Positions 39,279-57,937 of a DNA stretch of 64,000 bases are shown one piece after another. This DNA comes from an uncultured Ferrovum sp. (GTDB lineage: Bacteria; Pseudomonadota; Gammaproteobacteria; Burkholderiales; Ferrovaceae): positions 1 through 64,000 of the forward strand of contig CAITLJ010000082.1 in the NCBI GenBank assembly GCA_903893215.1, written 5' to 3'. The position numbers were made by a program, and so were the translations under genes. Below the pieces are notes generated by a model. The model saw only the letters and a program-made list of their open reading frames with translations, did no database searches and was not told the DNA's origin. The number at the start of each line of letters is the position of its first letter. Position 1 is the stretch's first letter.

Positions 39279-40526
39279 GTGTTTGATTCGAAAGCCACCA
39301 TCGCCAGCATCGACCCCGCACTGTGGGGCTGCATGCAGGACGAACGTCGCCGCCAGGAAGATCACGTCGAGCTGATTGCTTCGGAAAACTACACCAGCCC
39401 GGCCGTGATGGCAGCGCAGGGCTCGGTGCTGACCAACAAGTATGCCGAGGGTTATCCCGGCAAGCGTTACTACGGCGGTTGCGAGTTTGTGGACGTGGCC
39501 GAGCAGCTGGCAATTGATCGTATCAAGGCCCTGTTCGGTGCCGAATACGCCAACGTGCAGCCGCACTCCGGTTCGCAGGCCAACGCCGCCGTTTACGGCG
39601 CCTTCTTGCAACCCGGTGACACTATCCTGGGCATGTCGCTGGCCCACGGCGGTCACCTGACCCATGGTTCCAGCGTGAACTTCAGCGGCAAGACCTATAA
39701 GGGCGTGGCCTACGGTCTGCACCCGGATACCGAGCAGATCGATTACGACGAAGTCGAGCGCCTGGCCCACGAGCACAAGCCGAAAATGATCGTGGCGGGT
39801 GCTTCGGCTTACTCGCTGGAAATCGACTGGCAGCGTTTCCGCAATATCGCGGATGCCGTTGGTGCCTACTTTTTGGTCGACATGGCGCACTACTCCGGCC
39901 TGATTGCAGCGGGTGAGTACCCGAGTCCGGTAGGCATTGCCCACTTTGTCACTTCTACCACCCACAAGACCCTGCGCGGTCCGCGCGGCGGCATCATCCT
40001 GTCGAGCGCCGAATTCGAAAAGCCGCTCAACAGCATGATCTTTCCCGGCATCCAGGGTGGACCGCTGATGCATGTGATCGCTGCCAAGGCGGTGGCGTTC
40101 CTCGAGGCATCCAAGCCTGAATTCAAGGTGTACCAGCAGCAGGTCAAGGCCAACGCTGTCGCCATGGCCACCACCCTGACCGAACGCGGACTGCGCATCG
40201 TGTCCGGTGGCACCAAGAGCCACATGTTCCTGGTTGACCTGCGCGCCAAAGCCATCACCGGCAAGGCGGCGGAAGCCGTACTGGGCAGTGCGCACATGAC
40301 CTGCAACAAGAACGCGATTCCGAACGATCCCGAAAAACCTTTCGTGACCAGCGGCATCCGCATTGGTACCCCCGCCATGACCACCCGTGGCTTTGGTATC
40401 ACTGAGGCCCGGCAGATCGCAAACCTGATTGCCGACGTGCTAGAACATCATCAGGATGAAGCGGTGATCAGCCGCATCGCCGGCGAAGTGACGGCCTTGT
40501 GCCATCGCTTCCCGGTTTACGGCTGA
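39279..40526 (+). CDS. glyA: Serine hydroxymethyltransferase GlyA
   Basis: A 415-residue PLP enzyme. The PLP lysine is about residue 230 in [14 protein letters not shown]. Also present are [20 protein letters not shown] and YYGGCEFVD. It joins methylene-H4F and glycine to serine, the first carbon-fixing step of the serine cycle. GTG 39279 is chosen as start because GGAGGAAG lies 6-13 bases upstream. It heads the long plus-strand run of serine-cycle genes. Confidence 0.96.
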
Positions 40527-40550
40527 TCGCTTGATCCCACTGCGCAGGGA

Positions 40551-40572
40551 CAAGGGGCTGACCAGCCCCTTG
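40551..40572 (+). ncRNA. Stem-loop in the glyA-sgaA spacer
   Basis: CAAGGGGCT-GACC-AGCCCCTTG forms a perfect 9-bp stem 25 bases after glyA. No T-run follows, so it is more likely an mRNA-stability or processing element, or a leaky attenuator, than a full terminator. Confidence 0.5.
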
Positions 40573-40669
40573 CATCCACCAAGTCCATCCCGGGAGATCC
40601 CCCGGTCCGGCTGCGCATCGCTTCGTCCAAGCCCATATACCTATAACGAGATTCTGAGGAGTACTCACC

Positions 40670-41851
40670 ATGGCTGGTCGTAATTTTCTGTTTGTCCCGG
40701 GTCCCACCAACGTGCCTGACCGTGTGCTGCGCGCAATGGTGGTGCCACAGGAGGACCATCGTTCGCCCAAATTCGGCGAGCTGGGTCTTGCCTGCATCAA
40801 CGGCCTGAAGAAGATCTTCAAGACCGAGGCCGGTACGCCCTTCATCTTCCCCGCATCCGGCACCGGTTGCTGGGAAGCGGCGCTGGCGAACTGCCTGAAC
40901 CCCGGCGACAAGGTGCTGATCGCGCGCTTCGGCCAGTTCAGCCACTTGTGGGCCGACATGGCTGCCCGCCTGGGCTTCCAGGTGGAAATCCTCGAAACCC
41001 CCTGGGGTGAAGGTGCCCCGATCGAGCGCTACCGCGCCGCGCTGGCCGCCGATACCACGCACAGCATCAAGGCGGTGCTGGCGACGCAGAACGAGACCGC
41101 CACGGGGGTGAACAGCAATATTCCGGCCCTGCGCGCCGCCATCGACAGCGTGAAGCATCCGGCCCTGCTGATGGTCGATTCGGTGTCGGCGCTGGCTTCG
41201 GTGGATTTCCGCATGGACGAGTGGGGCGTGGACGTGTGCGTGAGCGGCTCGCAGAAGGGCCTGATGATGCCCGCAGGCCTCGGCATCACCTGCGTCAGTG
41301 CCAAGGCGCTGGAACTGGCCAAGACGTCGACCAGCCCGCGCTGCTACTTCGACTACGGTGACATGGTGCGCAACAATGCCACCGGGTACTTCCCCTACAC
41401 GCCCTCCATTCCGTTGCTGTACGGCCTGAAGGAAGCCATCGCCATGCTGCTCGAGGAAGGGCTGGAAAACGTGTTCGCCCGCCATGCCTACCTGGCGGCC
41501 GGCGTGCGCGCTGCCGTGCTGGAAGGCTGGGGCCTGAAGTTGTGCGCCACCGAGCCCCAGTGGTACTCCGACACGGTGTCGGCCATCATGGTCCCGGAAG
41601 GTTTTGATGCCGCCAAGGTGATCGCGCGCGCTTACAGCCAGTACAACACCTCGCTGGGCGCCGGTCTTAGCAAGGTGGCCGGTAAGGTGTTCCGCATCGG
41701 CCACCTGGGCGACAGCAACGTCGTGATGTGCCTGGCCGCCGTGGCTGCTGCCGAAATCGCCATGATCGACGTCGGTATTCCGGTCACGCCGGGTAGCGGT
41801 GTGGCCGCCGCCAGCACCTACTACCGCACCCACAGCCCCGAGGCCGCCTGA
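40670..41851 (+). CDS. sgaA: Serine-glyoxylate aminotransferase SgaA
   Basis: A 393-residue class-V PLP aminotransferase. It begins AGRNFLFVPGPTNVPDRVLR, and the PLP lysine is K196 in SGSQKGLMMPAGLG. It converts serine plus glyoxylate to hydroxypyruvate plus glycine, so it links the two halves of the cycle. It starts the core order sga-hprA-mtdA-fchA. The hprA start lies one base past its stop. Confidence 0.96.
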   Translation: MAGRNFLFVPGPTNVPDRVLRAMVVPQEDHRSPKFGELGLACINGLKKIFKTEAGTPFIFPASGTGCWEAALANCLNPGDKVLIARFGQFSHLWADMAARLGFQVEILETPWGEGAPIERYRAALAADTTHSIKAVLATQNETATGVNSNIPALRAAIDSVKHPALLMVDSVSALASVDFRMDEWGVDVCVSGSQKGLMMPAGLGITCVSAKALELAKTSTSPRCYFDYGDMVRNNATGYFPYTPSIPLLYGLKEAIAMLLEEGLENVFARHAYLAAGVRAAVLEGWGLKLCATEPQWYSDTVSAIMVPEGFDAAKVIARAYSQYNTSLGAGLSKVAGKVFRIGHLGDSNVVMCLAAVAAAEIAMIDVGIPVTPGSGVAAASTYYRTHSPEAA

Positions 41852-41852
41852 G

Positions 41853-42806
41853 ATGAGTCATCGTGTGGTTTTCCTGGACCGGGCCTCGCTGAAGGCCACG
41901 GTGCGCAAGCCCTCGGTTGCGGCGGAATACGTCGAGCACGAGAAGACGGTGGGACTTGAGGACACCCTGGCCAAGTTGAAGGGGGCCACGGTGGCGATCA
42001 CCAATAAGGTGCCGTTGCGCGGCGAGCTGTTGGCGCAGTTGCCCGACCTGAAGATGATCGCGGTGGCCGCCACCGGCTACGACGTGATCGACGTGCCGTA
42101 CTGCAAGGAACATGGCATTGCAGTGGCCAACATCCGCAATTACGCCGTGCATACCGTGCCGGAGCACACCTTTGCGCTGATGCTGGCCCTGCGCCGCAAC
42201 ATCCTTGCCTATCGCGAGGATGTCGAAGCCGGGGTGTGGCAGAAGTCCGACCAGTTCTGCTTCTTCACCCACCCGATCGGCGACCTGCATGGTGCCACGC
42301 TCGGGATCATCGGCGAAGGCGCGCTGGGGCAGGGCACCGCCACGATTGCGCGTGCCTTCGGCATGAAGGTGCTGTTTGCCGACCATGCCCCGCCGAAGGC
42401 ACCGGGCGTGGAGTTCACGCCGATGGACGAGGTGCTGGCGCAAGCCGACGTGATCTCGCTGCATTGTCCGCTGACACCGTCCACACGCAACGTGATCGGC
42501 ATCGAGCAATTGCGCAAAATGAAGCGCACCGCTCTGCTGATCAACACCGCGCGTGGTGGGCTGGTCGATGAGGCGGCGCTGATCCAGGCGCTCGACGAAG
42601 GCCTGATTGCCGGTGCAGGTTTTGATGTGCTGACGGTGGAGCCGCCGCGTGATGGTCATCCGCTGCTGGACGTGCGCCGTCCCAACTTCATACTGACGCC
42701 CCACGTGGCGTGGGCGTCGGACGGTGCCATGCAGTTCCTGGCGGATCAGCTGATCGACAATGTCGAGCTGTGGGCCAAGGGCACGCCGCAGCACCTGGTG
42801 ACCTGA
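41853..42806 (+). CDS. hprA: Hydroxypyruvate reductase HprA (glycerate dehydrogenase)
   Basis: A 317-residue D-2-hydroxyacid dehydrogenase. It has AATGYDVIDVPYCKEHGIAV, the cofactor loop LGIIGEGALGQGTATIARAF, INTARGGLVDEAALI and catalytic His284 in PHVAWAS. The cofactor loop has Glu in place of the third Gly-region hydrophobic residue, as in serine-cycle HprA. It reduces hydroxypyruvate to glycerate for Gck. It sits one base downstream of sgaA. Confidence 0.94.
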   Translation: MSHRVVFLDRASLKATVRKPSVAAEYVEHEKTVGLEDTLAKLKGATVAITNKVPLRGELLAQLPDLKMIAVAATGYDVIDVPYCKEHGIAVANIRNYAVHTVPEHTFALMLALRRNILAYREDVEAGVWQKSDQFCFFTHPIGDLHGATLGIIGEGALGQGTATIARAFGMKVLFADHAPPKAPGVEFTPMDEVLAQADVISLHCPLTPSTRNVIGIEQLRKMKRTALLINTARGGLVDEAALIQALDEGLIAGAGFDVLTVEPPRDGHPLLDVRRPNFILTPHVAWASDGAMQFLADQLIDNVELWAKGTPQHLVT

Positions 42807-42825
42807 ACCAAATACGGGGACGTAC

Positions 42826-43686
42826 ATGAAGAAGTTGTTGTTTCAACTCGACACGGATGCCACGCCGTCCGTGTTCGACAACGTGGTGTGCTACGACGGT
42901 GGTGCGGATCACATCACGGCCATCGGCGGTGTCACGCCGGACAACGTGGGTGCAATGGTCGACGGAGCCATCTTCACCCGTGCACCGAAGGACAAGAAGA
43001 GCACCGCCCTGTTCCTGGGGGGTAGCAGCATGGCCGACGGTGAAACCCTGCTCAAGGCGGTGAAGAAAAAATTCTTTGCCAACTTCCGGGTGTCGGTGAT
43101 GCTCGACAGCAATGGGGCCAACACCACGGCTGCGGCCTGCGTGGCCTGGCTGGGCCATGGCCGCTTGCTGGCTGGCAAGAAGGCCGTGATCCTGGCTGGT
43201 ACCGGTCCGGTCGGCTCCCGCGCTGCCGTGATGCTGGCGCGTGAAGGGGTGGAGGTGACCATCACGTCGCGCAAGGAAGAGCAGGCCCTGAAGACGGTCC
43301 ATGCCATCCGTGAGCGTTTCGGCATCGAGATCAAAGGGGTGGCCGCGCCCGATGGCGCCAGCCGAAGGGCAGCGATCGAGGGGGCGCATATCGTGGTTGC
43401 TACCGGCGCCGGCGGTATCGAACTGCTCGGTGAGGATGACTGGAAGAACAGTCCCACCCTCGAACTGATTGCCGATGCCAACGCCACGCCGCCGCTTGGC
43501 ATCACGGGTGTTGACATGATGGACAAGGGCCGCGAGCGCCACGGCAAGATCACGTTCGGTGCGATCGGTTTTGGTGCCCTGAAGATTGCCCTGCAGCGTG
43601 CCTGTGTGGCCAAGCTGTTCGATACCAACGACCTGGTGCTGGACGCCGAGGAAATTTACGCCATCGCCAAGACGATGGTGGGTTGA
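42826..43686 (+). CDS. mtdA: Methylene-H4F/H4MPT dehydrogenase MtdA
   Basis: A 286-residue NADP-dependent dehydrogenase. MKKLLFQLDTDATPSVFDNV is the classic start, and the cofactor loop VILAGTGPVGSRAA lies near residues 121-134. It interconverts methylene- and methenyl-tetrahydrofolate (or the methanopterin forms). With FchA and FtfL it forms the formate-to-methylene-H4F route. The spacing is 19 bases to hprA and 9 to fchA. This gene is almost limited to methylotrophs and is the strongest lifestyle marker here. Confidence 0.97.
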   Translation: MKKLLFQLDTDATPSVFDNVVCYDGGADHITAIGGVTPDNVGAMVDGAIFTRAPKDKKSTALFLGGSSMADGETLLKAVKKKFFANFRVSVMLDSNGANTTAAACVAWLGHGRLLAGKKAVILAGTGPVGSRAAVMLAREGVEVTITSRKEEQALKTVHAIRERFGIEIKGVAAPDGASRRAAIEGAHIVVATGAGGIELLGEDDWKNSPTLELIADANATPPLGITGVDMMDKGRERHGKITFGAIGFGALKIALQRACVAKLFDTNDLVLDAEEIYAIAKTMVG

Positions 43687-43695
43687 GGAGCGTTG

Positions 43696-44325
43696 ATGAG
43701 TACCCTGCAGCAGCCGTTACAGCAATTCCTTGATGAACTGGCGAGCAGTGCGCCGACCCCGGGAGGGGGCGGTGCGGCAGCGGTGATCGGGGCCACTGGC
43801 GCCGCCCTGCTGTCGATGGTCGCCAACCTGACCATCGGAAAGAAGGGGCTGGAAGAGGTGGATGCCGAGATGCGCGGCATCCTGGTGCAATCGGAACAAC
43901 TGCGTGCCCGGTTGTCGGCCATGGTGGCCGACGATGTGGCGGCTTTCGACAGCCTGATGGCCTCGTACAAGCTGCCGAAAGACACTGACGACCAGAAGGC
44001 TGCGCGCTCGGCGCAGATTCAGGCGGCGTTGCGTGCAGCTACCGAGGCACCGATGGCCTGTGCCCGTGCCGCGGCCGCCGTGGTGCAACTGTCGCGTCGT
44101 ACCGCAGAGATCGGCAACAAGAACGTGATCAGCGATGCTGGCGTCGGCGTGCTGGCGGCCCAGGCCGCCTTGCGCAGCGCCGCGCTCAACGTTTACATCA
44201 ATGCCCCGTCGCTGAAGGATCAGGACTTCGCTCGGGGAATCGTGCAGGAACTCGAAGCGCTGCTTGCCGAGAGCGCGGTGGCGTCGGAAGACATCTATTC
44301 CCTGGTCAAGGCCCGACTGGCGTGA
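43696..44325 (+). CDS. fchA: Methenyltetrahydrofolate cyclohydrolase FchA
   Basis: A 209-residue protein of the FTCD cyclodeaminase fold. It has FLDELASSAPTPGGGGAAAV near the start and RTAEIGNKNVISDAGVGVLA later. It hydrolyses methenyl-H4F to 10-formyl-H4F, or runs in reverse for assimilation. ATG 43696 follows GAGGAG with good spacing. It is the last gene before the tandem hairpin array. Confidence 0.95.
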   Translation: MSTLQQPLQQFLDELASSAPTPGGGGAAAVIGATGAALLSMVANLTIGKKGLEEVDAEMRGILVQSEQLRARLSAMVADDVAAFDSLMASYKLPKDTDDQKAARSAQIQAALRAATEAPMACARAAAAVVQLSRRTAEIGNKNVISDAGVGVLAAQAALRSAALNVYINAPSLKDQDFARGIVQELEALLAESAVASEDIYSLVKARLA

Positions 44326-44634
44326 GGCGCAGACTGGTGCCGGTGAATGAATGCCAGTCCTTGCGCCGGTGAATCAATACCCGGCCTTGCGCCGGTAGAA
44401 AAATACCCGGCCTTGCGCCGGTAAAAAAATACCCGGCTCCACGCCGGTAAAAAAATACAGAGCAGCCGCAGGCCATTTTTGGCCCGCAGGGGAAGGCTTT
44501 GCCCGAAATTCGTGCGCCTCAGGTGTCACGCGGGCTTCTCCAGAAGGCGCCACCAACCGATCCGGATCACGTGCGGAGCACGGGTCCACCATCTTTACCG
44601 TCGCTTGACGGGTCTTTTTGAGGAGGAAGCACAG
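44326..44634 (+). other. Spacer between fchA and mtkA
   Basis: The 309-base gap divides the run of serine-cycle genes. Its first half is filled by the 26-bp tandem hairpin repeats. The second half has no recognisable gene and ends in the strong ribosome site GAGGAGGAAG before mtkA. A separate mtkA promoter could lie here but was not assigned. Confidence 0.6.
44354..44457 (+). repeat. Tandem 26-bp hairpin repeats, four full units
   Basis: Four consecutive 26-base units (44354, 44380, 44406 and 44432) are preceded by a decayed fifth (about 44331-44353). The consensus unit is CCCGGCCTTGCGCCGG followed by TAAAAAAATA. Units 2-4 each form a 5-bp stem, CCGGC/GCCGG. The loop is CTTGC in two and TCCAC in the last, so the stem is kept while the loop drifts. 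The A-rich tail is on the transcribed strand, so these are not ordinary terminators. Confidence 0.9.
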
Positions 44635-45801
44635 ATGGATATTCATGAGTATCAGGCGAAGTCCCTGCTCGCCGGTTTCGGCGTGGTGGTACCCGCTGGT
44701 GGCGTGGCTTACAGCCCGGACCAGGCGGTGTACGTGGCCACCGAACTGGGTGGCTCCCATTGGGCCGTAAAGGCGCAGATTCACTCCGGTGGGCGTGGCA
44801 AGGCCGGTGGCGTGCGACTGTGCCGTACCTATCGGGATGTGGCCGAGGCCGCCCAAGGCCTGCTGGGCGCCCGGTTGGTGACCAACCAGACCGGTCCTGA
44901 GGGCAAGGTAGTGCATCGTTTGTACGTGGAGCGTGCCACTGCGTTCGAGCGCGAGATCTATCTGGGCTTTGTGCTTGATCGCAAGATCGAACGCATTCGC
45001 GTGATCGCCTCCGCCGAGGGGGGCATGGAAATCGAGGAAATTGCCCACAACAAGCCGGAGTCGATCATGCAGATCGAGGTGGAACCGGCAGTCGGCCTGC
45101 AACCCTTTCAGGCGCGCGAACTGGCTTTCGGTCTGGGGCTCAACCTGAAGCAGGTGTCGCAGGCGGTCACGATCATCCTGGGCTGCTACCGGGCGTTCCG
45201 TGACCTCGACGCGACCATGGTGGAAATCAACCCGCTGGTGGTCACCAAGGAAGATCAGGTGATCGCACTGGATGCCAAGATGTCGTTCGACGACAACGCT
45301 TTGTTCCGCCGGCCGCAGGTATCCGAAATGCGCGACCCGGCCGAGGAAGACCCGCGCGAGGCGCAGGCTGCCGAACATGGCCTGAACTACGTGGGGCTGG
45401 CTGGCGACATCGGTTGCATCATCAATGGCGCGGGTCTGGCGATGGCCACCATGGACACCATCAAGTATTGCGGTGGCGAACCGGCCAATTTTCTGGACGT
45501 GGGCGGTGGCGCGTCACCCGAGCGTGTCGGTGCCGCCTTCCGCCTGGTGCTTTCGGACCGCAACGTGAAGTGCATCCTGGTCAACATCTTTGCCGGCATC
45601 AACCGCTGCGACTGGGTGGCGCAGGGCGTCGTGCAGGCGGCTGCCGACCTGAAGGTGCCGCTGGTGGTGCGCCTGGCCGGCACCAATGTGGAAGAGGGCC
45701 AAAAGATCATCCGCGAATGCGGGCTGCCGATCCACACCGCGGATTCCCTGATGGAGGCCTCGCAACTGGCCGTCCGTCTTGCGGCCGGCGCGGTCGCCTG
45801 A
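44635..45801 (+). CDS. mtkA: Malate-CoA ligase (malate thiokinase) beta subunit MtkA
   Basis: A 388-residue ATP-grasp subunit similar to SucC. It starts [17 protein letters not shown] and shows [33 protein letters not shown] and [17 protein letters not shown]. With MtkB it makes malyl-CoA from malate, CoA and ATP. It is assigned as MtkA rather than succinyl-CoA synthetase because of its place in the order mtkA-mtkB-ppc-mclA after fchA. The strong ribosome site is GAGGAGGAAG. Confidence 0.94.
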
Positions 45802-45829
45802 TCCCTTTTCTGCCTTCGAGGACACATCC

Positions 45830-46720
45830 ATGAGCATCCTGATCAACCAACACACCCGCGTCATCGTGCAGGGTTTCACTGGCGACAAGGCCAGTTTTCA
45901 TGCCAGCGAGATGATCGCGTACGGCACCAATGTGGTGGGCGGCGTCACGCCCGGCAAGGGGGGCAAGACCCACCTGGGCCGCCCGGTATTCAACACGGTG
46001 AAAGAGGCTGCAGCTGCGACCGGCGCGCAGGCCAGCCTGGCCTTCGTGCCGCCCCCCTATGCCGCAGATGCGCTGATGGAAGCGGCCGATGCCGGCCTTG
46101 AACTCGTCTGCATCATTACGGACGGCATCCCGTCGCAGGACATGATGCGCGTCAAGCGCTACCTGCGCCGCTATCCCAAGGAGCGCCGCACCACCATCGT
46201 CGGCCCCAACTGCGCGGGCATCATCAGCGCCGGCAAGGCCATGCTCGGCATCATGCCCAGCCATATCTACCTGCCCGGCAATGTGGGCATCGTGTCGCGC
46301 TCGGGTACGCTGGGATATGAGGCGGCCGCCCAGATGAAGGCGCTGGGTATTGGGGTGAGCACCAGCGTGGGTATTGGCGGCGATCCGATCAACGGATCGT
46401 CCTTTCTCGATCACATGGCGCGCTTCGAGGAAGATCCTGATACCCGTGCGGTGGTGATGATTGGCGAGATCGGCGGCCCGCAGGAAGCCGAAGCCGCGGC
46501 CTGGATCAAGGAAAACATGAGCAAGCCGGTGGTTGGCTACGTCGCCGGCCTGACGGCGCCCAAAGGCCGGCGCATGGGGCACGCGGGTGCGATCATTTCC
46601 GCTGCTGGTGACACTGCCGCAGAAAAGTCGGAAATCATGGCGTCGTTCGGCCTGTTCGTGGCACCCAGTGCCGCCGAACTGGGCACGACGGTGGCACGGG
46701 CCCTGGCCAGCGTGGCATGA
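45830..46720 (+). CDS. mtkB: Malate-CoA ligase alpha subunit MtkB
   Basis: A 296-residue SucD-like subunit. It has [20 protein letters not shown], the CoA-domain block [20 protein letters not shown] and the phospho-histidine H251 in [11 protein letters not shown]. It is the partner of MtkA. Its stop overlaps the ppc start (ATGA), so malyl-CoA and oxaloacetate formation are translated together. Confidence 0.95.
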
Positions 46721-49461
46721 ACGCCATGACGCCGCCGGGCTACATGATCACGCCGGAAGATGCCGAGGAAAGTCCGCGGGCGGTGGACGGTTTTTCGCGC
46801 ACCGACCTGCTGCACGACCTGTTCGTGAAGGTGTTGACCCGCTATCAGCCGGAAGTGGTGCCGGTAATCAACGGAGAGTTGCCGATCCGTGGGCTGCCAC
46901 CTGCGTTGCTGATCAAGGCCCTGCGCGCGCAGGGCGTCTGGTTCCAGTTGCTGGCGATTGCCGAGCAGAACCGCGACATGCGCAACCGCCGCATGGTCGA
47001 GCAGGCGCATGGTGCAGACAGCGTACCCGGATCGCTCAACCATGCGTTTGCGGGGGTGGCGCGCAGTGGAGTATCGGCTGAGGCGGTCCGCCAGACACTC
47101 GGCAACCTGCGCATCCGTCCCACCCTGACCGCGCATCCCACCGAAGCGCGAAGGGTCACCGTGCTGGAGCGTTATCGGCGCATCTACCTCAAGCTGGTGG
47201 ATTTCGAGTCACCCCGCTGGACCGACCGCGAGCGCGAAGATGCACTGGCCACTATTGCCAGTGAAATCGAGCTGCTCTGGCTGACCGGCGAGCTGAAGCT
47301 GGAAAAACCCACCGTGGACAAGGAAGTGGCTTGGGGTTTGTATTTTTTCCAGGAAAACCTGTTCGACGTGGTACCGCAGGTGGTTGCCAAGGTGGAGGCT
47401 GCGTTGGCCCGGCATTTTCCCGGCGAGTCCTTCGACGTGCCCCTGTTTATGACCTTTGGCTCGTGGATTGGTGGTGACCGGGATGGCAACCCCTATGTGA
47501 CCAGCGCGGTGACACGGCGCACCCTGTGGGAGACCCGGCTGGCGGCCCTGCGTCGTTATCACGAAAGGGTGGGCGACCTGATCCGTGTGCTGAGCATTTC
47601 CGAGCGTGAATTGCCGGTGCCAGCCGACTTTGCGGCGCATGTGGCGCACGCGCTGGGCAGCATTGCCGAAGGCGAGCAGCTGCGGCAACGCAACCCGAAT
47701 GAAGTGTTCCGCCAGTTTCTGGCTTACATACGGCAGCGCCTGCAGGCCACATTGACGCCGGCGGAGCAGCATGCGCTGCCGCCTGCAGGGACGGGATACC
47801 GTACCGCCGATGAATTGCTGGCAGACCTCGATCGCATGATCGCTGCCATGCAGGTCGCAGGTGCACCGGCAGTGGCCGAGACGCTGCTGCTCCCCCTGCG
47901 GCGTGAAGTCGGTATCTTCCGCTTTGCTACCGTGCGCCTGGATGTGCGGGAGAACACCATCCGCATGAATCAGACCCTGGCGGAAATGCACCGTATCCTG
48001 ACCGGGCATCCGGCGCCAGCGGCCGACACGCCGCAATGGAAAGCCTGGCTGCTGTCCGAATTGACCCGGCCACGCGGCGCCGCCCGCGATCTGTCGGCGC
48101 TGAGCAGCGAGGCAGCGGAAACGCTCGACACCTTCCGTGTGATCGCAGAAATGCGCCAGACCATCGATCGTGAGGCCTTCGGTGCCCTGATCCTGAGCAT
48201 GACCCACAGTGCAGCCGACGTGCTCGGCGTGTACCTGATGGCCAAAGAGGCTGGTCTGTTCACCGATGCGGCTGGTATGGAGGGGTGCACCCTGCCCATC
48301 GTGCCGCTGCTCGAAACCATTCCTGACCTGCGTCGTGCATCCGCCATCCTGAAAGAGTTGCTGGCGGTTCCGGTGGTGCAGCGCAGCCTGCGCCAGCAGC
48401 ATAATGTGCAGGAAGTCATGGTGGGCTACTCCGATTCCAACAAGGACGGCGGCTATTTCGCCGCCAATTGGGAACTTGCCAAGGCGCAGCGGCAAATGGT
48501 GCGTACCGGTCAGGAAGCCGGGGTGGTGATCAGCTTCTTCCATGGTCGCGGCGGTTCGGTCAGTCGCGGTGGCGCCCCCACTGGCAAGGCGATTGCTGCC
48601 GCACCTGCGGGGTCGATCCGGGGCAGTTTTCGCAGCACCGAGCAGGGCGAGGTGGTTTCGCTCAAGTACGCCAACCGCGGAACGGCAGCCTTCCAGCTCG
48701 AGTTGCTCTCGTCGTCAGTGATGGCGCATGTGCTCACCTCCGAGCGCGAAGCCGCCGGCCAGCCTCTGCACGAATATGAGGAGGCGATGGAAGCCATCTC
48801 CGGCACGTCCTGGACTGCGTACCGCAAGTTGATGGAGCGCCCGGATATGCTCGCCTACTTGCAGGCCTCGAGCCCACTGGAGGAATTGTCGCTGCTCAAT
48901 ATCGGTTCGCGGCCTGCACGGCGAACCCAGGCCACCACCCTGGCTGACCTGCGCGCGATTCCCTGGGTGTTTGCCTGGACGCAGAACCGTCACATGGTGA
49001 CCGGCTGGTATGGCGTGGGCACCGGGCTGAAGGCTTTTCTGGATGTGCGCGCCGGGCGCGGTAACGAACTGCTGCAGCGCATGTTCCACGGCTACCGGTT
49101 GTTCCGCATGACCATCGACGAGGTCGAACGCAGTCTCTATCAGGTGGATCTGGAGATTGCGCGTGACTATGCCGACCTGGTCGGGGACCCGGTCACCCGC
49201 GAGGAAATCTTCCAGCAGATCGTGGATGAGTACCGTCTGACGTGCGAGATGGTGCTGCGCGTTTCTGGTGGCAGCACCATTGCAGAACGTTTTCCGCAAT
49301 ACCGACGGCGGCTCGACCGTCGCTTGCAGACGCTCAATCTGGTCAGCCGCGAACAGGCTGCCCTGCTGCGTCGCCTGCGCGACCAGGGCGATGATGCCGT
49401 GCGCGACGCATTGCTGATGTCAATCAACTGTGCGGCCGCAGGTTTGGGAGCCACCGGATGA
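46717..49461 (+). CDS. ppc: Phosphoenolpyruvate carboxylase
   Basis: The 914-residue carboxylase makes oxaloacetate from PEP and bicarbonate, the CO2-fixing step of the serine cycle. Catalytic H140 is in LTAHPTEARR, K576 in YSDSNKDGGYFAANWE and H609 in FFHGRGGSVSRGGAP. Its length is typical. Overlap with mtkB and the following mclA is the order known from serine-cycle bacteria. No separate housekeeping ppc is visible in the window. Confidence 0.96.
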   Translation: MNAMTPPGYMITPEDAEESPRAVDGFSRTDLLHDLFVKVLTRYQPEVVPVINGELPIRGLPPALLIKALRAQGVWFQLLAIAEQNRDMRNRRMVEQAHGADSVPGSLNHAFAGVARSGVSAEAVRQTLGNLRIRPTLTAHPTEARRVTVLERYRRIYLKLVDFESPRWTDREREDALATIASEIELLWLTGELKLEKPTVDKEVAWGLYFFQENLFDVVPQVVAKVEAALARHFPGESFDVPLFMTFGSWIGGDRDGNPYVTSAVTRRTLWETRLAALRRYHERVGDLIRVLSISERELPVPADFAAHVAHALGSIAEGEQLRQRNPNEVFRQFLAYIRQRLQATLTPAEQHALPPAGTGYRTADELLADLDRMIAAMQVAGAPAVAETLLLPLRREVGIFRFATVRLDVRENTIRMNQTLAEMHRILTGHPAPAADTPQWKAWLLSELTRPRGAARDLSALSSEAAETLDTFRVIAEMRQTIDREAFGALILSMTHSAADVLGVYLMAKEAGLFTDAAGMEGCTLPIVPLLETIPDLRRASAILKELLAVPVVQRSLRQQHNVQEVMVGYSDSNKDGGYFAANWELAKAQRQMVRTGQEAGVVISFFHGRGGSVSRGGAPTGKAIAAAPAGSIRGSFRSTEQGEVVSLKYANRGTAAFQLELLSSSVMAHVLTSEREAAGQPLHEYEEAMEAISGTSWTAYRKLMERPDMLAYLQASSPLEELSLLNIGSRPARRTQATTLADLRAIPWVFAWTQNRHMVTGWYGVGTGLKAFLDVRAGRGNELLQRMFHGYRLFRMTIDEVERSLYQVDLEIARDYADLVGDPVTREEIFQQIVDEYRLTCEMVLRVSGGSTIAERFPQYRRRLDRRLQTLNLVSREQAALLRRLRDQGDDAVRDALLMSINCAAAGLGATG

Positions 49462-49561
49462 ACGCCGCTGCAGCTTTTCTGCCTTTGCCTACGCGATCTT
49501 TGGTCATGCCGCCTGCCTGCCTTTACTTTGTTCAGCGCATTCCGCGCAAGGAGTTCACGTC

Positions 49562-50545
49562 ATGAGTTTCACCATCATCGAGCAAGCCACTGCCCGCCTG
49601 CATCGTTCCGAACTGGCGGTACCCGGTTCCAATCCGGCAATGTTCGAAAAGGCCGCGGCGAGCGCGGCCGACATCATCTTCCTGGACGTTGAAGATGCCG
49701 TCGCGCCTGACGACAAGCCGCAGGCGCGCAAGAACATCATCGCCGCGCTCAACGATATTGACTGGGGCAACAAGACCATGATGGTGCGCATCAATGGTCT
49801 CGATACCCATTTCATGTACCGGGATGTGGTTGACATCGTCGAAGCCTGCCCGCGTCTGGACATGATCCTGATTCCCAAGGTGGGGGTGCCTGCCGATGTG
49901 TATGCCATCGACATGCTGGTGACCCAGATCGAGGCCGCCCAAAAACGCACCAAGCGGATCGGGTTCGAAGTGTTGATCGAGACGGCGCTGGGCATGGCCA
50001 ACGTCGAGGCGATTGCGCAGTCCAGCAAACGGCTGGAGGCCATGTCCTTTGGCGTGGCGGATTACGCGGCCTCCACGCGTGCGCGCACCACCGTGATTGG
50101 CGGCGTCAACAAGGACTCTGGCGTGCTGACCGATCGCGATGCGGATGGTCATCGCGCTTACTTCTGGACCGATCCCTGGCATGCAGCGCAGACCCGCATG
50201 ATGGTGGCCTGCCGCGCTTATGGCCTGCGCCCAATCGACGGCCCCTTCGGCGATTTCAGTGACCCCGATGCCTTCCTCAGTGCCGCCAACCGGGCGGCGG
50301 TGCTCGGTTACGAGGGCAAATGGGCAATTCACCCCTCACAGATCGCGCTGGCCAATCAGGTGTTCACGCCCTCCGAGGCCGAAGTGACCAAGGCACGGCG
50401 CATTCTCGAGGCAATGGCCGAGGCAGCGCGCGCCGGCAAAGGGGCAGTCAGTCTTGATGGTCGGCTGATCGATATCGCCAGTATCCGCATGGCGGAAGCC
50501 CTGCTGGCCAAGGCAGATCAGATCGCCGGTGCTACGGTCCCCTGA
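49562..50545 (+). CDS. mclA: L-malyl-CoA/beta-methylmalyl-CoA lyase MclA
   Basis: A 327-residue HpcH/HpaI-CitE-family lyase. It has RSELAVPGSNPAMFEKAAAS, IIFLDVEDAVAPDDKPQARK, IPKVGVPADVYAIDMLVTQI and EGKWAIHPSQIALANQVF. It splits malyl-CoA to acetyl-CoA and glyoxylate, closing the serine-cycle gene set. It starts at 49562 with AAGGAG upstream. A strong terminator follows, so it ends the operon. Confidence 0.95.
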   Translation: MSFTIIEQATARLHRSELAVPGSNPAMFEKAAASAADIIFLDVEDAVAPDDKPQARKNIIAALNDIDWGNKTMMVRINGLDTHFMYRDVVDIVEACPRLDMILIPKVGVPADVYAIDMLVTQIEAAQKRTKRIGFEVLIETALGMANVEAIAQSSKRLEAMSFGVADYAASTRARTTVIGGVNKDSGVLTDRDADGHRAYFWTDPWHAAQTRMMVACRAYGLRPIDGPFGDFSDPDAFLSAANRAAVLGYEGKWAIHPSQIALANQVFTPSEAEVTKARRILEAMAEAARAGKGAVSLDGRLIDIASIRMAEALLAKADQIAGATVP

Positions 50546-50603
50546 AGGGGACGTCAGTCCGTTTTTTGGCAGCGCCGGCCCAAAAGGCTTGCGAGGCATG
50601 TGC

Positions 50604-50638
50604 AGGGCCGGCGTGTCCACCGCGCCGGCCCTTTTTTT
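50604..50638 (+). terminator. Rho-independent terminator after mclA
   Basis: GGGCCGGCG, a 9-base loop, CGCCGGCCC and then TTTTTTT lie about 60 bases past the mclA stop. This is a textbook intrinsic terminator that closes the serine-cycle run. Confidence 0.92.
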
Positions 50639-50832
50639 GGGGGAGGGTACCCTGTATTCATGTGCAGATTTTGCTGTAGACGGTCCTTTAACTTGATGTT
50701 TTCTATGGATTAGGTAAGAAATTCTTAAAAGCGAAATGCATTGCAATGCGGTTGCGACGGTGTTAACTTCTGTTTCAACTGGTGGGAACCTTTCCCGCGC
50801 CGTGGTCGTTGCAATCCGACCTCGTTAATTCC

Positions 50833-53307
50833 ATGAGGGTCCGCATCTTGGAACCTGTGTCGAGCGAAAACGTGGTTTGGCTGGAAGCGATGGAACGCAC
50901 CGGTAAGGTGGTTCGTCGTGGTGAGCCTATGGTTTTCCTCGCCGAATGCCGTGACCAGCTGTTGGCTCAGATCGTGAGTGCGTTAAACCGGCTGGTCGAG
51001 CAGATCGAACAGGACCTGTTCGATCTGGCCGAACGATCAGACTCGGGTGATCTGCGCTCGCAGTATCTCGACGCCCATGACAAGCTGGCCTCGCGCCGCG
51101 CCCTGGTCAGCTTCGGGTTCCGCCGCTGCTATGCGGCCGCTTGGACTGCGGCCACCAGCACTCCGGACAGTCGCCGGGATGGCGGCCTGGGTGATCCCGG
51201 CTTGAGCCTGGTCGACAACGACATACTGGAAGAAACCATTGCCGTGGCCAAGCTCAGTGCGTCGCTCGAGCGTAACCTTGAGGAGTCCCTGTTCAAGCTC
51301 ACCGGTCGCGTCGCGCTCCTGCTAGGCGTGACCCAGATGGATAATGCGGCCAACCCGCTGCGGCCGCGGCTGGTGGCCGAAGCCCTGCATGCCGCCCTGG
51401 CTGACCTGGCGCTGGGTAGTCGCGCCAAGGTGGCGGTGGTCGGGTTGTTCGAACGCGGGTTGCGCGAAGAACTGCGACTGGGTTACGAAGAAATCGAGAA
51501 GCGTCTGGCGCGGCGGCTGGGCAATGGCGATCCGGGCAGCGTCAGCCGACGTCAGCCCCGCAAGACCTTCGCCCCCAATCGCCGTGATCCTGGCGCAGAT
51601 CTTTATGGCACGCTGGCGCGGCTGGTGTCCGAAGTTCGTGGTGAATCCAATCCTTCCGACACTGCGGTCGCTGGCGCAGCCTCCGCGCCGGCCGGGTCGA
51701 TGGGGGTGGGTGTAGCGCCGGGCGTGATCGGTGCGGGTGGTGTGTACGTGCAGCAAGGTGCGGCAGGCGCCGCCGGTGCGCATGGAGCACCGACAACCGG
51801 CCAGGGCCCTGTGGCCGGCGGGCTTCAAGCCCCGGTGGCTGCCGTCAGCGGCTTCGCGGCGGGTATCCCTCCGCAGGCTGCCAATTCTGCGGTCCTGCTC
51901 ACGTCCCTCACCGCCCTGCAGCGCGGTGACACGAGTGCGTTCGGCGCGCTGGCGCTGCTCTCACCGACTGACGTCGAGGCCGGTAGCGGCAATATCCTGC
52001 ACGCGCTGCGTCGCACTCCGTTGGCCCGTGAATTCCCGGCCAGTGATGGGGTTACGTTTGACATCGTGGCCATGCTGTTCGACTTCATCTTCGAAGATGA
52101 AGATATTTCCGAGCTGATGAAGGCGCGCATCGGCCGCTTGCAGGTGCCGATGGTCAAGGTGGCCCTGCTCGACAAAGGATTCTTTTCGTCACGGCAACAT
52201 CCCGCCCGCCAGCTGATCGACCTTCTCGCCGAAGTGGCGCAGGCCTGGGTGCCGGAGGGTTTCAACAACGAGCGCCTTCTCGCGGAGGTCGATGCCACCA
52301 TCCAGTCGGTACTTGATCAGTTCGAGACCGATGTAGCCGTCTTTGCCGCGGCCGCCACCCGGCTCACCGTGTTTCTGGAAGCCGAGCGTGCGCGTGAGCG
52401 CGAACTGGCCCAGGCCTCCGCCCATCTGGTGCTGGCGCGTGAACGGAAGGAAATTGGCCGAAGCGTGGGGCTCGACGAAATCGAGCGCCGGCTGGCCAAC
52501 CGCGACATTCCTGCATCCGTGGCGGCTTTCCTGCGGCAGCATTGGGCCGAGGTGATGGCCGCCTTGCATGTGCGCCATGGCGAAAGTGCCCCGGAATGGG
52601 CGGCTGGATTGGCCACATTGGACGAGCTGCTCTGGAGTGTCGAGCCGAAACTGTCTTCACCCGAGCGCAACCAGTTGGTGGCGCGTCTGCCTCAGTTGCT
52701 GCGCCGCTTGCAGTCAGGCATGGATCTGGTCGAAGTCCCGCCGGCGGAGCGCAATGCCTTCTTCACCGCACTGGTAGCCTGCCATGCCAGCGCGGTCAAG
52801 ATGGGCTTGCGGTCGGTGCAGCGCGAGGGCGAGGCACCGCAGCGCCGCGCTTCCATCGACAGTCCAGCCGAAATGTCTGACGTCCCGGGACGTCGTGTGA
52901 TGGGTGACGGACTGGGTTCGGATGGCCAATCGGCCCCCTTGCTGCTGACCGAGGTTGACGAAAACGGCGTGCAGCTGGAAGAGATCCGGCTGGAAGGCGA
53001 GCGTGGTGTGCGGCTTGGCACCCTGCAGGGCGTGGACGAATATGCCGCCATGGTCACCGCGCTCAAGCGCGGTGCCTGCGTGGAGTTCGCATCGCTGGAA
53101 GGTCGTCGTACCCGCTGCAAGCTGGCGTGGGTAAGTCCGTTGCGCGGTATTTACCTGTTCACGCGCCAACCCGGCCGGCAGGCGCTTTCCGTCTCGCCAG
53201 AGGCGCTCGCGGCAGCACTGCGCAGCGGTGAGGCCACCATCCTCAACGACGCGCCGCTGTTCGATCGTGCCGTCGATTCGCTGCTCGGCGCGCTCAGCCC
53301 AGCCTGA
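50833..53307 (+). CDS. DUF1631-family protein with PilZ-like C-terminal region
   Basis: A large cytoplasmic protein (about 824 residues) of the DUF1631 family. The N-terminal helical region has RRALVSFGFRRCYAAAW, and the middle has TPLAREFPASDGVTFDIVAM and IGRLQVPMVKVALLDKGFFS. The C-terminal ~90 residues have a PilZ-like pattern (ACVEFASLEGRRTRCKLAWV, then SPLRGIYLFTRQPGR), which suggests cyclic-di-GMP or ribosome-linked sensing. The start is unclear: ATG 50833 or GTG 50782. A Gly/Ala-rich linker lies at about residues 285-340. Confidence 0.8.
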   Translation: MRVRILEPVSSENVVWLEAMERTGKVVRRGEPMVFLAECRDQLLAQIVSALNRLVEQIEQDLFDLAERSDSGDLRSQYLDAHDKLASRRALVSFGFRRCYAAAWTAATSTPDSRRDGGLGDPGLSLVDNDILEETIAVAKLSASLERNLEESLFKLTGRVALLLGVTQMDNAANPLRPRLVAEALHAALADLALGSRAKVAVVGLFERGLREELRLGYEEIEKRLARRLGNGDPGSVSRRQPRKTFAPNRRDPGADLYGTLARLVSEVRGESNPSDTAVAGAASAPAGSMGVGVAPGVIGAGGVYVQQGAAGAAGAHGAPTTGQGPVAGGLQAPVAAVSGFAAGIPPQAANSAVLLTSLTALQRGDTSAFGALALLSPTDVEAGSGNILHALRRTPLAREFPASDGVTFDIVAMLFDFIFEDEDISELMKARIGRLQVPMVKVALLDKGFFSSRQHPARQLIDLLAEVAQAWVPEGFNNERLLAEVDATIQSVLDQFETDVAVFAAAATRLTVFLEAERARERELAQASAHLVLARERKEIGRSVGLDEIERRLANRDIPASVAAFLRQHWAEVMAALHVRHGESAPEWAAGLATLDELLWSVEPKLSSPERNQLVARLPQLLRRLQSGMDLVEVPPAERNAFFTALVACHASAVKMGLRSVQREGEAPQRRASIDSPAEMSDVPGRRVMGDGLGSDGQSAPLLLTEVDENGVQLEEIRLEGERGVRLGTLQGVDEYAAMVTALKRGACVEFASLEGRRTRCKLAWVSPLRGIYLFTRQPGRQALSVSPEALAAALRSGEATILNDAPLFDRAVDSLLGALSPA

Positions 53308-53365
53308 AGCATTCCTGTGTGTCTGGCATAATAGCGTTTTGCTGTAACGCGGGGTTGGCCAATTC

Positions 53366-55195
53366 ATGTGCGGAATTGTTGGTGCAGTAGCGCAAAGAAA
53401 CGTTGTGCCGATCCTGCTCGAGGGCCTGAAGCGCCTCGAATATCGCGGTTATGATTCGGCCGGATTGGCCGTGCTGGCGGCAGACGGCCTGCAGCGCGTG
53501 CGCAGCGTCGGGCGAGTTGCAGCGTTGGCCGCAGAGGCGCAGGCACTTGGCGTGCGCGGCACTGTGGGTATCGCACACACCCGCTGGGCTACCCACGGAG
53601 CACCCACCGAACGCAATGCCCATCCTCACGTCAGTCGTGACCAACTGGCGGTGGTGCACAACGGCATCATCGAGAACCACGAGCAGCTGCGCGCCGAACT
53701 CATGGTGGCCGGTTATGCATTCAGCTCCGACACCGATACTGAGGTGATCGCGCATCTGGTGCATCGTCACTGGTCAGCCTGCGGCGATCTGGCCCTTGCG
53801 GTGCGCGAGGCAGTGTCGCGCCTGCATGGAGCCTATGCCATCGCCTGCATCGTGCCGACTGCGCCAGACCGGATGGTGTGTGCGCGGCGCGGTTCACCTC
53901 TTCTGCTCGGGGTGGGTATCGAAGAGTATTTTGTGGCATCCGATGCTTCGGCGCTGCTGCCCGTTACCCAGCGCATGGTGTATCTGGAAGAGGGCGATAT
54001 TGCCGACATCACCCTGCAGGGGTATTCGGTGAGCGACGCACAGGGCGTGGTCGTGCAGCGTGGCGTGCATTTGAGCGAGCTGTCTGGCGAGACTGCCGAA
54101 CTGGGGCCCTATCGCCATTTCATGCAGAAGGAAATCGCCGAGCAGCCGCGCGCGATCGGGGACACCATCGAGGCCACCCTCGGTCGCGGGTTTGTACCCG
54201 AGCTGTTCGGTGCAGGCGCTGCTGGTGTGTTCGATGGCATCGACAGCGTCACCGTTCTGGCCTGCGGCACCAGCTTTTATGCCGGACTGGTGGCGCGCTA
54301 TTGGATCGAAGCGATCGCGCAACTGCCTTGCAGCGCCGAAGTGGCAAGCGAATACCGTTACCGCGAAACAGTACGCAACCCGCGCACCCTGATTGTGACC
54401 ATTTCACAGTCCGGTGAAACGGCTGACACGCTGGCGGCACTCAAGCATGCGCAGGTGCAGGGGCACGTCCGCTCGTTGGCGATCTGCAATGTTCCGGAAA
54501 GTGCGATCGTGCGTGCATCCACCCTGTCGATGCTGACTCGCGCCGGCATGGAAATCGGGGTGGCATCCACCAAGGCCTTCACCACCCAGCTCGCCGCCCT
54601 GTTCACCCTTGCGGTCACGCTGGCCAAGGCGCGTGGCGTGCTGGCTGCCGAACGCGAAGCCGAGTATCTCGACGCACTGCGCCGCCTGCCGGGCAAGGTG
54701 CAGCATGTGCTCAATCTGGAGGCGCAGTTGAGCGTGTGGGCTGAGCGTTTCGCAGACAAGCACCACGCCCTGTTCCTCGGACGCGGGGTGCATTATCCGA
54801 TCGCACTTGAGGGCGCGCTGAAGCTGAAGGAAATTTCCTACATTCATGCTGAGGCTTACCCGGCCGGTGAGCTCAAGCATGGGCCATTGGCACTTGTCGA
54901 TGCCGACATGCCGGTAATTGCCATTGCGCCGAACGATGCATTGCTCGAGAAACTGAAGAGCAACCTGCAGGAAGTCAAGGCACGCGGCGGCGAGCTCTAT
55001 GTGCTGGCGGACAACGACAGCCAGTTTCAGGCTGAGCCAGGCGTTCATGTGATTCGCATGCCCGACCACGAAGGCATCCTCAGCCCGGTATTGCACGTGA
55101 TTCCGCTGCAACTGCTGGCTTATCACACCGCCCTGCAAAAGGGCACGGACGTCGACAAACCGCGCAATCTGGCAAAATCGGTCACGGTGGAGTAG
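53366..55195 (+). CDS. glmS: Glutamine-fructose-6-phosphate aminotransferase (isomerizing) GlmS
   Basis: This 609-residue two-domain enzyme is the first step of UDP-GlcNAc synthesis. The glutaminase domain starts [20 protein letters not shown], with Cys exposed after Met removal, and shows [18 protein letters not shown]. The two SIS domains contain [15 protein letters not shown] and [16 protein letters not shown]. The C-terminal end [12 protein letters not shown] carries the active-site Lys. Confidence 0.97.
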
Positions 55196-55921: not shown

Positions 55922-57937
55922 TCAACGACGGGTCAGTGCCGTCAGTCCGTCCGCCACGCTGTTGGCCTCGGATGCCGCACTGGCCGTGCCTGCGCTGAAG
56001 GACTCGACTTGGGCCAGCATCTCGGACAGCTTGCCGACCTGTGCCGATTGATGCTCGATTTCGTGTGCCACATGGCCGATTTCGCCCGCCAGCAGATTCA
56101 CGTCTTTGCCGATTTCCGCGGCACTGTTGCGCGATTGCTCGGACAGTTTGCGCACTTCATCGGCAACCACTGCAAATCCACGGCCTTGTTCGCCGGCGCG
56201 CGCCGCTTCGATCGCCGCATTCAGCGCAAGCAGATTGGTCTGATCGGCAATCTTCTGGATCACGCTCACCACACGCTGAATACGCTGACTGGCCTCCGCC
56301 AGGTCACGCGCACTCCTGGCGGCAGTCGCCGCTTGTGAAGCCACACTCTCGACGGTGCCATTGGCATCGTGGATCACCTGTTGTTGGCGCACGACCTGCT
56401 CGTTCAATTTGCCCATCGAGGCGTACAGATCACCCGCGCTGGATTCGAGTTTGAGGTCCGTCTCGGCGCGCTGCTGGTTCGCGCCCTCCAGGGTTTCACC
56501 CAACTGGTTGAGGCCAAACACCACTTTCGAGATGTTGCCGTCAAAACTGCCTGGATCCAGAGTGGCGCGGAAGTCCAAGGCGCGATAGGCGTCGATCTGT
56601 CCGACCACAACACGCGCGAGTCCCGCCAGCTTGGAGATTTGGCGACGCAGGAAAAAGGCCTTGAACTCGCCGTAGTGACCGACAAAGTTGTCGACGAATT
56701 CGTCGCGAAAGCGCTCTCCGGCGGCGACGCGGTAAAAAAATATTGCTGTCAGCGTCTGGTTGAGGTTGAGGCCCAGGATTTCTCCGAAGGTCGAGAAGCC
56801 TGCGATGCCATTGCCGGAGATCACGCCTCCCATGCGCGGAAGCTCTTTCTGATTGTAGAGTCGGCGCAGAATGCAGTCGTTCAGGATCCCACCGATCGGT
56901 TGCCCGGGCTTGCCTTCCATGAAGCGCCGGAAGTCGCGCTCGGTTGCGTCAACCAAACCGGTCCGGCGCACCATCATCAAGTCTTCGCCGGCACCTACAT
57001 CGCAATAGAAATGTACACGCTGGGTAGTCAGATCGATGCGCGAAATCGAACGCACGAAGAATTCCTTGCCGACCGGAATCGCAAAGGAGTGATCGGCGAG
57101 ACGGTGTTCGAGCTCCTTGGGCGCGCAGGACAGGGTTTTGCACAGCGCATCGATCAGCGTGGTGATCTGCCCTTTTTCATCCAGCACCTGATGCACGTAG
57201 CGCTGTTCGAGCGAGCCGTTGAGCACCTGGAAGCGGGTAGGGGTGGGATCGAAGTTCTGCGTCTTGAGCACGCCGAAGCGCACGCCGGGGCGCATTTTCA
57301 GGAACGCGATCATGGCGTGGTTGGTGTATCGACGTGTCCCGTCGTGCATCCAGCTCGCACCAAAGTCCAGCTTGCCACCCGAAGACCCACCCACAAACAG
57401 GCAAGGGAAGCGCCGCGACTCATAGAGCGCCTCCATCAGGAAGGATTCCGAGTTCGACAGCCCGTCGATCAGCACATAGGCGAGGGTGTCACGATGATCG
57501 ATATCGACCGGCACCGACACTTGTTCGAGTGTCCGGCGGATACGTTCTACCCGGGTCTGCACGTCACAATTGACCTGCTGCCCGCGCAAATCCTCGCTGC
57601 CAAGTGGCACGGTCACGATATGCGCCTGCGCAACGACGCTGGCGTCGAACACCTGCACCACGATATTGTCCCAGGTCCCGCTGGTGCTGCAGTAGAGGTT
57701 GCGTCCGCTGTTATGGAGTTCGCCCGCGGTGGAGCACACCATCATGGTGGCCGAGGGAAAGCGGCTGCGCAGCCGCTGGGCTACGCCATCGATGTCCACA
57801 TGGGGTGAAGCATAGGCCAGCACGAAACTGGCCGTGCCTGGGACACCTTCCAGGCGGCTGGACAGTTCGGCTGCGCTTGATTCGACAACGACAATGCCTT
57901 CAGTGGTGGAACCCTTGCGACGCTTGAACCCAAACAT
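55922..57937 (-). CDS. FIST-domain methyl-accepting chemotaxis-type signal protein
   Basis: A 671-residue soluble sensor. Residues ~20-370 form FIST_N and FIST_C domains ([51 protein letters not shown]). The C-terminal part is the MCP signalling hairpin with the conserved tip [20 protein letters not shown] followed by [18 protein letters not shown]. No transmembrane segment is seen, so it is a cytoplasmic receptor. FIST domains are thought to sense small ligands such as amino acids. No che genes are near. Confidence 0.9.

Follow-up and report, generated by a model that had tools for sequence, protein, structure and literature searches.

A tandem stem-loop array in the fchA-mtkA gap of a Ferrovum serine-cycle operon, possibly expanded from one ancestral stem-loop

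Stem-loops that lie within operons and set transcript ratios belong to selective RNA processing and stabilization (SRPS), which has been described, as far as the available parts of the reports go, for the cip-cel operon of Clostridium cellulolyticum (PMC4423207) and for operons of Escherichia coli (PMC10667835). In C. cellulolyticum, transcript ratios inside the operon are correlated with the energy of the 3'-terminal stem-loops, and the number of stem-loops rose during the evolution of cellulosome operons (available part of PMC4423207); in E. coli, the energy of stem-loops at the 3' ends of operons is linked with stops of PNPase (available part of PMC10667835). The initial annotation of the DNA analyzed here, which proposed that a hairpin array sets the ratio between two parts of an operon, knew of no named element of this form, and SRPS supplies that name. 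Two other kinds of repeat also invite comparison. REP elements are defined, in the accessible part of PMC12306157, as extragenic and palindromic sequences of 14 to 40 nt that share a consensus, and in Streptococcus gallolyticus, the coding GCAGA repeats that precede the pil1 operon serve to tune a leader peptide, according to the part of the report that was available (PMC3894217). For serine-cycle operons, no stem-loop or hairpin element was found in the literature outside subscription papers, and the available part of PMC12403871 shows none.

The locus lies in a 64-kb stretch of DNA from an uncultured Ferrovum species (the window). The gene order on the plus strand is glyA, a gene for an sga-type aminotransferase, one for an hprA-type dehydrogenase, mtdA, fchA, mtkA, mtkB, ppc, and a gene for an mclA-type lyase; a strong terminator-like site is found at 50604 to 50632. 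Both fchA and mtkA pass curated family cutoffs, and the names sga, hprA, mtdA, ppc, and mclA derive from family matches, partly below curated cutoffs, together with context. Spacing and strand suggest that these genes are cotranscribed as one operon. A search limited to sigma-70-like promoters gave none on either strand between positions 40000 and 55000, compared with 2.8 in shuffles. The order of the operon is identical in all five genomes of the genus, i.e., this one and four congeners, and in each of the five, the gap between fchA and mtkA is the longest in the operon (309, 210, 186, 187, and 199 nt, respectively), the nearest rival being the mtkB-ppc gap of about 174 nt in the congener G002. 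The array sits, as annotated, at the boundary between an upstream segment that ends with fchA (glyA-sga-hprA-mtdA-fchA) and a downstream segment that begins with mtkA (mtkA-mtkB-ppc-mclA). The GC content of the gap ranges from 0.44 to 0.69 across the five genomes.

The array of 26-bp units in this gap is real and was correctly placed by the initial annotation. Tandem Repeats Finder (TRF) scored it at 133 and 144 in two phases, and when the 64-kb window was dinucleotide-shuffled 100 times, the highest-scoring array reached 63, which excludes a chance origin. With the phase adopted here, unit 1 spans 44354 to 44379, unit 2 spans 44380 to 44405, unit 3 spans 44406 to 44431, and unit 4 spans 44432 to 44457, with a partial unit preceding them. 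TRF reported 4.6 copies, and the initial annotation counted four full units and one decayed unit; the number of units depends on the phase, and three have an intact stem. The motif CCGGC-N5-GCCGG is indeed intact in the units that begin at 44380, 44406, and 44432, each of which is followed by an A-rich tail, and the unit at 44354 has CCAGTC in place of CCCGGC. Units 2 and 3 differ by one base, units 3 and 4 by four, and units 1 and 2 by six. The loop had been described as changing from CTTGC to TCCAC while the stem stayed constant; unit 4 does differ in this way, but the loops of units 2 and 3 are identical, which leaves a single comparison. The four bases that distinguish unit 3 from unit 4 all fall together within the 5-nt loop and may represent one event or an ancestral flank.

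An assembly artifact is thought unlikely because the array, at about 120 bp, is shorter than common reads. A coding repeat is also thought unlikely, given that a period of 26 bp is not divisible by three and that the array sits between recognized genes. We also found a minus-strand open reading frame of 334 amino acids (44374 to 45378) that starts inside mtkA, to which it is antisense, crosses units 4 to 2, and ends in the array; it is probably spurious.

Table 1. Genes and predicted RNA features in and around the fchA-mtkA gap (window positions)
Feature	Position	Strand	Basis or predicted property
fchA, methenyltetrahydrofolate cyclohydrolase	43693..44325	+	NF045657, 300 bits (cutoff 275); PF04961
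H0, long stem-loop directly after the fchA stop	44326..44367	+	-19.3 kcal/mol; includes the arm of the "decayed" first unit
Tandem 26-bp array, 4.6 copies	44339..44458	+	TRF; single genomic locus
Unit 2 stem-loop, CCGGC-CTTGC-GCCGG	44381..44395	+	-7.8 kcal/mol alone; P of 0.03-0.05 in full gap
Competing hairpin with A-rich loop, GCCGGTA-GAAAAA-TACCCGGC	44391..44411	+	-7.9 kcal/mol alone; in minimum-energy fold
Unit 3 stem-loop, CCGGC-CTTGC-GCCGG	44407..44421	+	-7.8 kcal/mol alone; P of 0.04-0.07 in full gap
Unit 4 stem-loop, CCGGC-TCCAC-GCCGG	44433..44447	+	-8.1 kcal/mol alone; P of 0.67-0.91 in full gap
H2 stem-loop, GCAGGCCATTTTTGGCCCGC	44468..44487	+	RNAalifold columns 204-226; similar position in congeners
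H3 stem-loop just 5' of the mtkA Shine-Dalgarno sequence	44598..44611	+	RNAalifold columns 339-355
Shine-Dalgarno sequence of mtkA, GAGGAGG	44620..44626	+	Sequence, by eye
mtkA, malate-CoA ligase beta subunit	44635..45801	+	NF010647, 705 bits (cutoff 604)

The strongest predicted element of the gap is H0, which is not one of the hairpins initially annotated. In H0, GGCGCA pairs with TGCGCC and GACTGG pairs with CCAGTC; its outer six pairs have probabilities of 0.83 to 1.0 in the full-gap ensemble, and it is also present in the minimum-energy folds. The unit at 44354 is not merely decayed, as had been supposed, since its CCAGTC arm is the partner of the upstream GACTGG in this stem-loop. The lone 5-bp hairpins of the units are predicted to be weak, and when the whole gap is folded, the hairpin annotated for each unit is favored for unit 4 but becomes a minor form in units 2 and 3, whose local hairpins are rare because their arms pair across units. 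A competing hairpin with an A-rich loop rivals the CTTGC-loop hairpin in energy. Overall, the gap is more stable than its shuffles (z of -2.7 and -4.0 in two runs), and the 175-nt part that holds the array is borderline on both the plus strand (z of -1.96, with 10 of 200 shuffles equally good) and the minus strand (z of -1.89, 6 of 200).

The five gap sequences, with their varying loop lengths, make a poor alignment (alignment A1), and an RNAalifold run on it did not recover the element labeled H1, paired distant columns with many broken cells, and gave an unfavorable covariation term (+1.38). H2 and H3 are therefore taken with caution. For H2, two-sided changes are found at three of the eight pairs (in one or two of the five sequences) and six of the eight pairs are broken (in one or two sequences); the best 40-nt z over this stretch is -3.2 in G001, -2.3 in G003, -1.3 in G004, about -0.9 to -1.5 in this genome (G000), and -0.2 in G002. 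For H3, the last 60 nt of the gap are no more stable than shuffles in any of the five genomes (z of 0.12 to -1.06). H3 is followed by GTCTTTTTGA (both within 44598 to 44619), just 5' of the mtkA Shine-Dalgarno sequence, and this resembles a weak plus-strand terminator or attenuator; the T-run after H3 is not kept in the congeners.

All four congeners compared carry one CCGG-cored stem-loop 8 to 12 nt past the fchA stop (GCCGGC-CGC-GCCGGC, GCCGGC-AGC-GCCGGC, GCCGGT-ATTC-ACCGGT, and GCCGGC-TTTA-GCCGGT), and the array was found in none of them. Copy number is therefore not conserved among these relatives. The congener loops, of 3 to 4 nt, are all different; the core CCGG/CCGG pairs are invariant across the five genomes, and the innermost pair changes once, on both sides, from C-G to T-A. 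The outer pair is G-C or G-T in the congeners and is unpaired in the genome with the array. The covariation sought for the stem thus amounts to one two-sided change, accompanied by changed loops in all four congeners, but four of the five core pairs never vary, which makes conservation of sequence and conservation of structure inseparable at the core. In alignment A1, the 3' arm of unit 4 falls opposite the one stem-loop present in each congener, and the sequence beyond unit 4 is aligned with that of G001 up to and including H2. On these comparisons of sequence, the best reading of the array is that one ancestral stem-loop was expanded in tandem, and in this lineage alone.

A stem past a stop codon is by itself ordinary, since such stems are common in the sampled gaps: stems of at least 5 pairs were present in 19 of 82 gaps in G000, 3 of 12 in G001, 0 of 3 in G002, 4 of 10 in G003, and 8 of 21 in G004, counting Watson-Crick pairs within 45 nt in gaps of at least 45 nt between crude open reading frame-based genes, with terminators included. 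It is less ordinary for all five genomes to carry the same core at one corresponding position. Past the fchA stop, the first 40 nt exceed shuffles in stability in G003 and G004 (z of -2.1 and -2.3, respectively; -1.8 and -2.2 in a second run) but do not clearly do so in G000, G001, and G002 (z of about -0.9). The GC-rich genomes have 237, 357, and 517 sites of the form CCGGC-N3-5-GCCGG, compared with 156, 222, and 353 for a reversed control; the low-GC genomes G003 and G004 have 4 and 3, compared with 4 and 2 for the control. The stem-loop after fchA in G004 is of this form, and that in G003 is of the form CCGGT/ACCGG. The presence within one genus of genomes rich in CCGGC stems (237 to 517 places) and poor in them (3 to 4), when each congener's mtkA protein is still 92 to 94% identical to that of the genome with the array, points to a large GC shift.

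Within its own genome, the gap matches a single place by BLAST, and the unit pattern with up to three mismatches recovers three exact copies in the array and one 3-mismatch match at window positions 56717 to 56742. The unit is thus not scattered through the genome; scattering without a link to transcription units was the outcome that the initial annotation had named as evidence against its reading. Among the 31 other genomes of the family, a search for this particular unit pattern with up to two mismatches revealed no array; 30 have no match, and G002 has one isolated 2-mismatch match. A looser pattern of 17 bases, covering half a unit, has 30 matches in the genome with the array (four of them in the array) and 19 for the reversed control. 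A 14-base pattern was too short, matching at least 118 stretches from many unrelated bacteria, and supports no result; among the matches listed for it, stretch L023 has four about 95 bp apart. Several other tandem arrays, with coding and intergenic ones counted together, were found in 15 sampled stretches and the window. Another contig of the same genome (L190:420-6308) contains, in a 6-kb stretch, several blocks of 24-bp tandem repeats, which probably represent a repetitive coding gene.

Outside the genus, no FchA match was seen in the mtkA loci within the 1.5-kb flanks covered, three of which end upstream at contig ends, and no shared hairpin after fchA was noticed by eye in 20 of 25 fchA loci, the remaining five being that of the genome itself and four distant matches. 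In other genera of the family, it is hprA that precedes mtkA, in all 15 aligned loci, and the last 45 nt or so of 14 of these 15 hprA-mtkA leaders contain the inverted repeat CTCC(A)TG(T/C)TATCAT ... ACAGGAGG (L129 to L134, L137, L139, and L141 to L146; L135 is without it). This inverted repeat would pair with the mtkA Shine-Dalgarno sequence and could form a hairpin that sequesters it, controlling malate thiokinase.

Among the described systems, SRPS is the closest in kind to the array region, a likeness that rests on sequence and predicted folds. As in SRPS, an upstream gene within an operon carries a stem-loop at its 3' terminus: H0 follows the fchA stop directly, unit 4 follows it by 106 nt, and the congeners have their stem-loops in the corresponding place. 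Orthologous stem-loops in the related operons of all four congeners and the change in stem-loop number during evolution are further likenesses. In contrast to the SRPS examples, however, the array consists of a single short unit repeated in tandem, its copies nearly identical. The array also has features of REP or BIME elements, which stabilize upstream mRNA. The units are extragenic, palindromic, within the size range of REP elements, and similar to one another, and they lie between genes of an operon. Unlike REP or BIME elements, they occur tandemly, head to tail, with a fixed 26-bp period, and at one genomic locus, so the array is not a REP element or other dispersed repeat. Nor is it an intrinsic terminator on the plus strand, because its tails are A-rich and provide no U-tract; no plus-strand site was called in the array. 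The best of three subthreshold Rfam matches in 43600 to 45000 is to SorX, on the minus strand at 44424 to 44494 (23.2 bits, compared with a gathering threshold of 46.6; E of 0.0072), and is probably due to the stem plus the T-run. Like this array, the pil1 repeats are short, tandem, and placed ahead of an operon gene close to a stem-loop; there, however, the repeats are coding, whereas the period and position of this array speak for a noncoding one.

We tentatively favor, with a probability of about 0.45, a reading in which an ancestral stem-loop expanded here and H0, the array, and H2 together act as a putative barrier where the upstream segment ends. The genus ancestor would have had one stem-loop just past the fchA stop, and expansion would have proceeded, most likely by replication slippage at the hairpin, in this lineage only. 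In the mRNA, H0, the array, and then H2 would form a structured barrier at the 3' end of glyA-sga-hprA-mtdA-fchA. An endonuclease would cut in the gap, perhaps within the single-stranded A-rich linkers, a guess from what is known of RNase E, and the barrier would slow 3'-to-5' exonucleases after the cut. As a result, the upstream segment would be more abundant or more stable than mtkA-mtkB-ppc-mclA. By analogy with SRPS, the most likely role would be 3'-end protection or a processing boundary inside the operon. Within this scheme, the likelier functional part may be the ancestral stem-loop, and the extra copies may add little or nothing.

Nearly as likely is neutral slippage, in which a tandem repeat grew at a hairpin-prone noncoding site with no effect beyond that of the ancestral stem-loop, or with none at all. 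The restriction of the array to one of five genus genomes and, by unit pattern, to one of 32 family genomes is consistent with such growth, as are the near identity of units 2 and 3, which is consistent with a recent duplication, the weakness of single units, and the spread of gap lengths from 186 to 309 nt, which indicates that large changes are tolerated. Against neutral growth stand a stem that stays intact in three units despite differing tails and one differing loop, a point weakened by the small number of units, and the location of the array at the very position where a stem-loop is kept across the genus.

A more elaborate reading would make the repeat tunable: two mutually exclusive pairing registers, one with CUUGC in the hairpin loops and A-rich linkers and the other with A-rich loops and CUUGC in the linkers, would be combined with slippage in copy number that resets the ratio of C1-transfer enzymes to carboxylation and malyl-CoA enzymes within one serine-cycle operon. 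We consider this very unlikely. It is also very unlikely that the array is a row of antisense terminators that stop minus-strand transcription from mtkA into fchA. Such a stop is conceivable because a T-rich stretch follows each CCGGC/GCCGG stem on the minus strand (TATTTTTTT for unit 4), and three minus-strand terminator-like sites match the consensus within the array (44447 to 44433, 44421 to 44407, and 44395 to 44381); both strands of 40000 to 55000 contain 18 such sites, compared with 10.0 (standard deviation, 3.4) in shuffles. However, the A-run that yields the T-run is missing just before the single stem-loop in all four congeners, the T-run of the third site is broken, the stems have just 5 pairs, and no sigma-70-like promoter was found on either strand of this region.

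Direct repeats of a dyad, the layout of this array, are also a common layout for operators. Inverted-repeat sites for a regulator acting on mtkA, e.g., one of the LysR type, for which QscR offers a precedent through its control of serine-cycle genes in Methylobacterium (available part of PMC2680597), are nonetheless very unlikely, given that the half-site spacer measures 5, 3, 3, 4, and 4 nt in the five genomes, which a dimeric regulator is not expected to tolerate, that no promoter of the sigma-70-like type was recognized in the gap, and that the full unit was not found elsewhere in the genome.

If, as in the favored reading, the stem-loops after fchA divide the transcript, the flux through the serine cycle would be balanced partly posttranscriptionally, inside one operon; if they do not, the array would be an ordinary slippage repeat. 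One species with a multiplied stem-loop and four with a single copy provide a natural test of the relationship between stem-loop number and operon stoichiometry.
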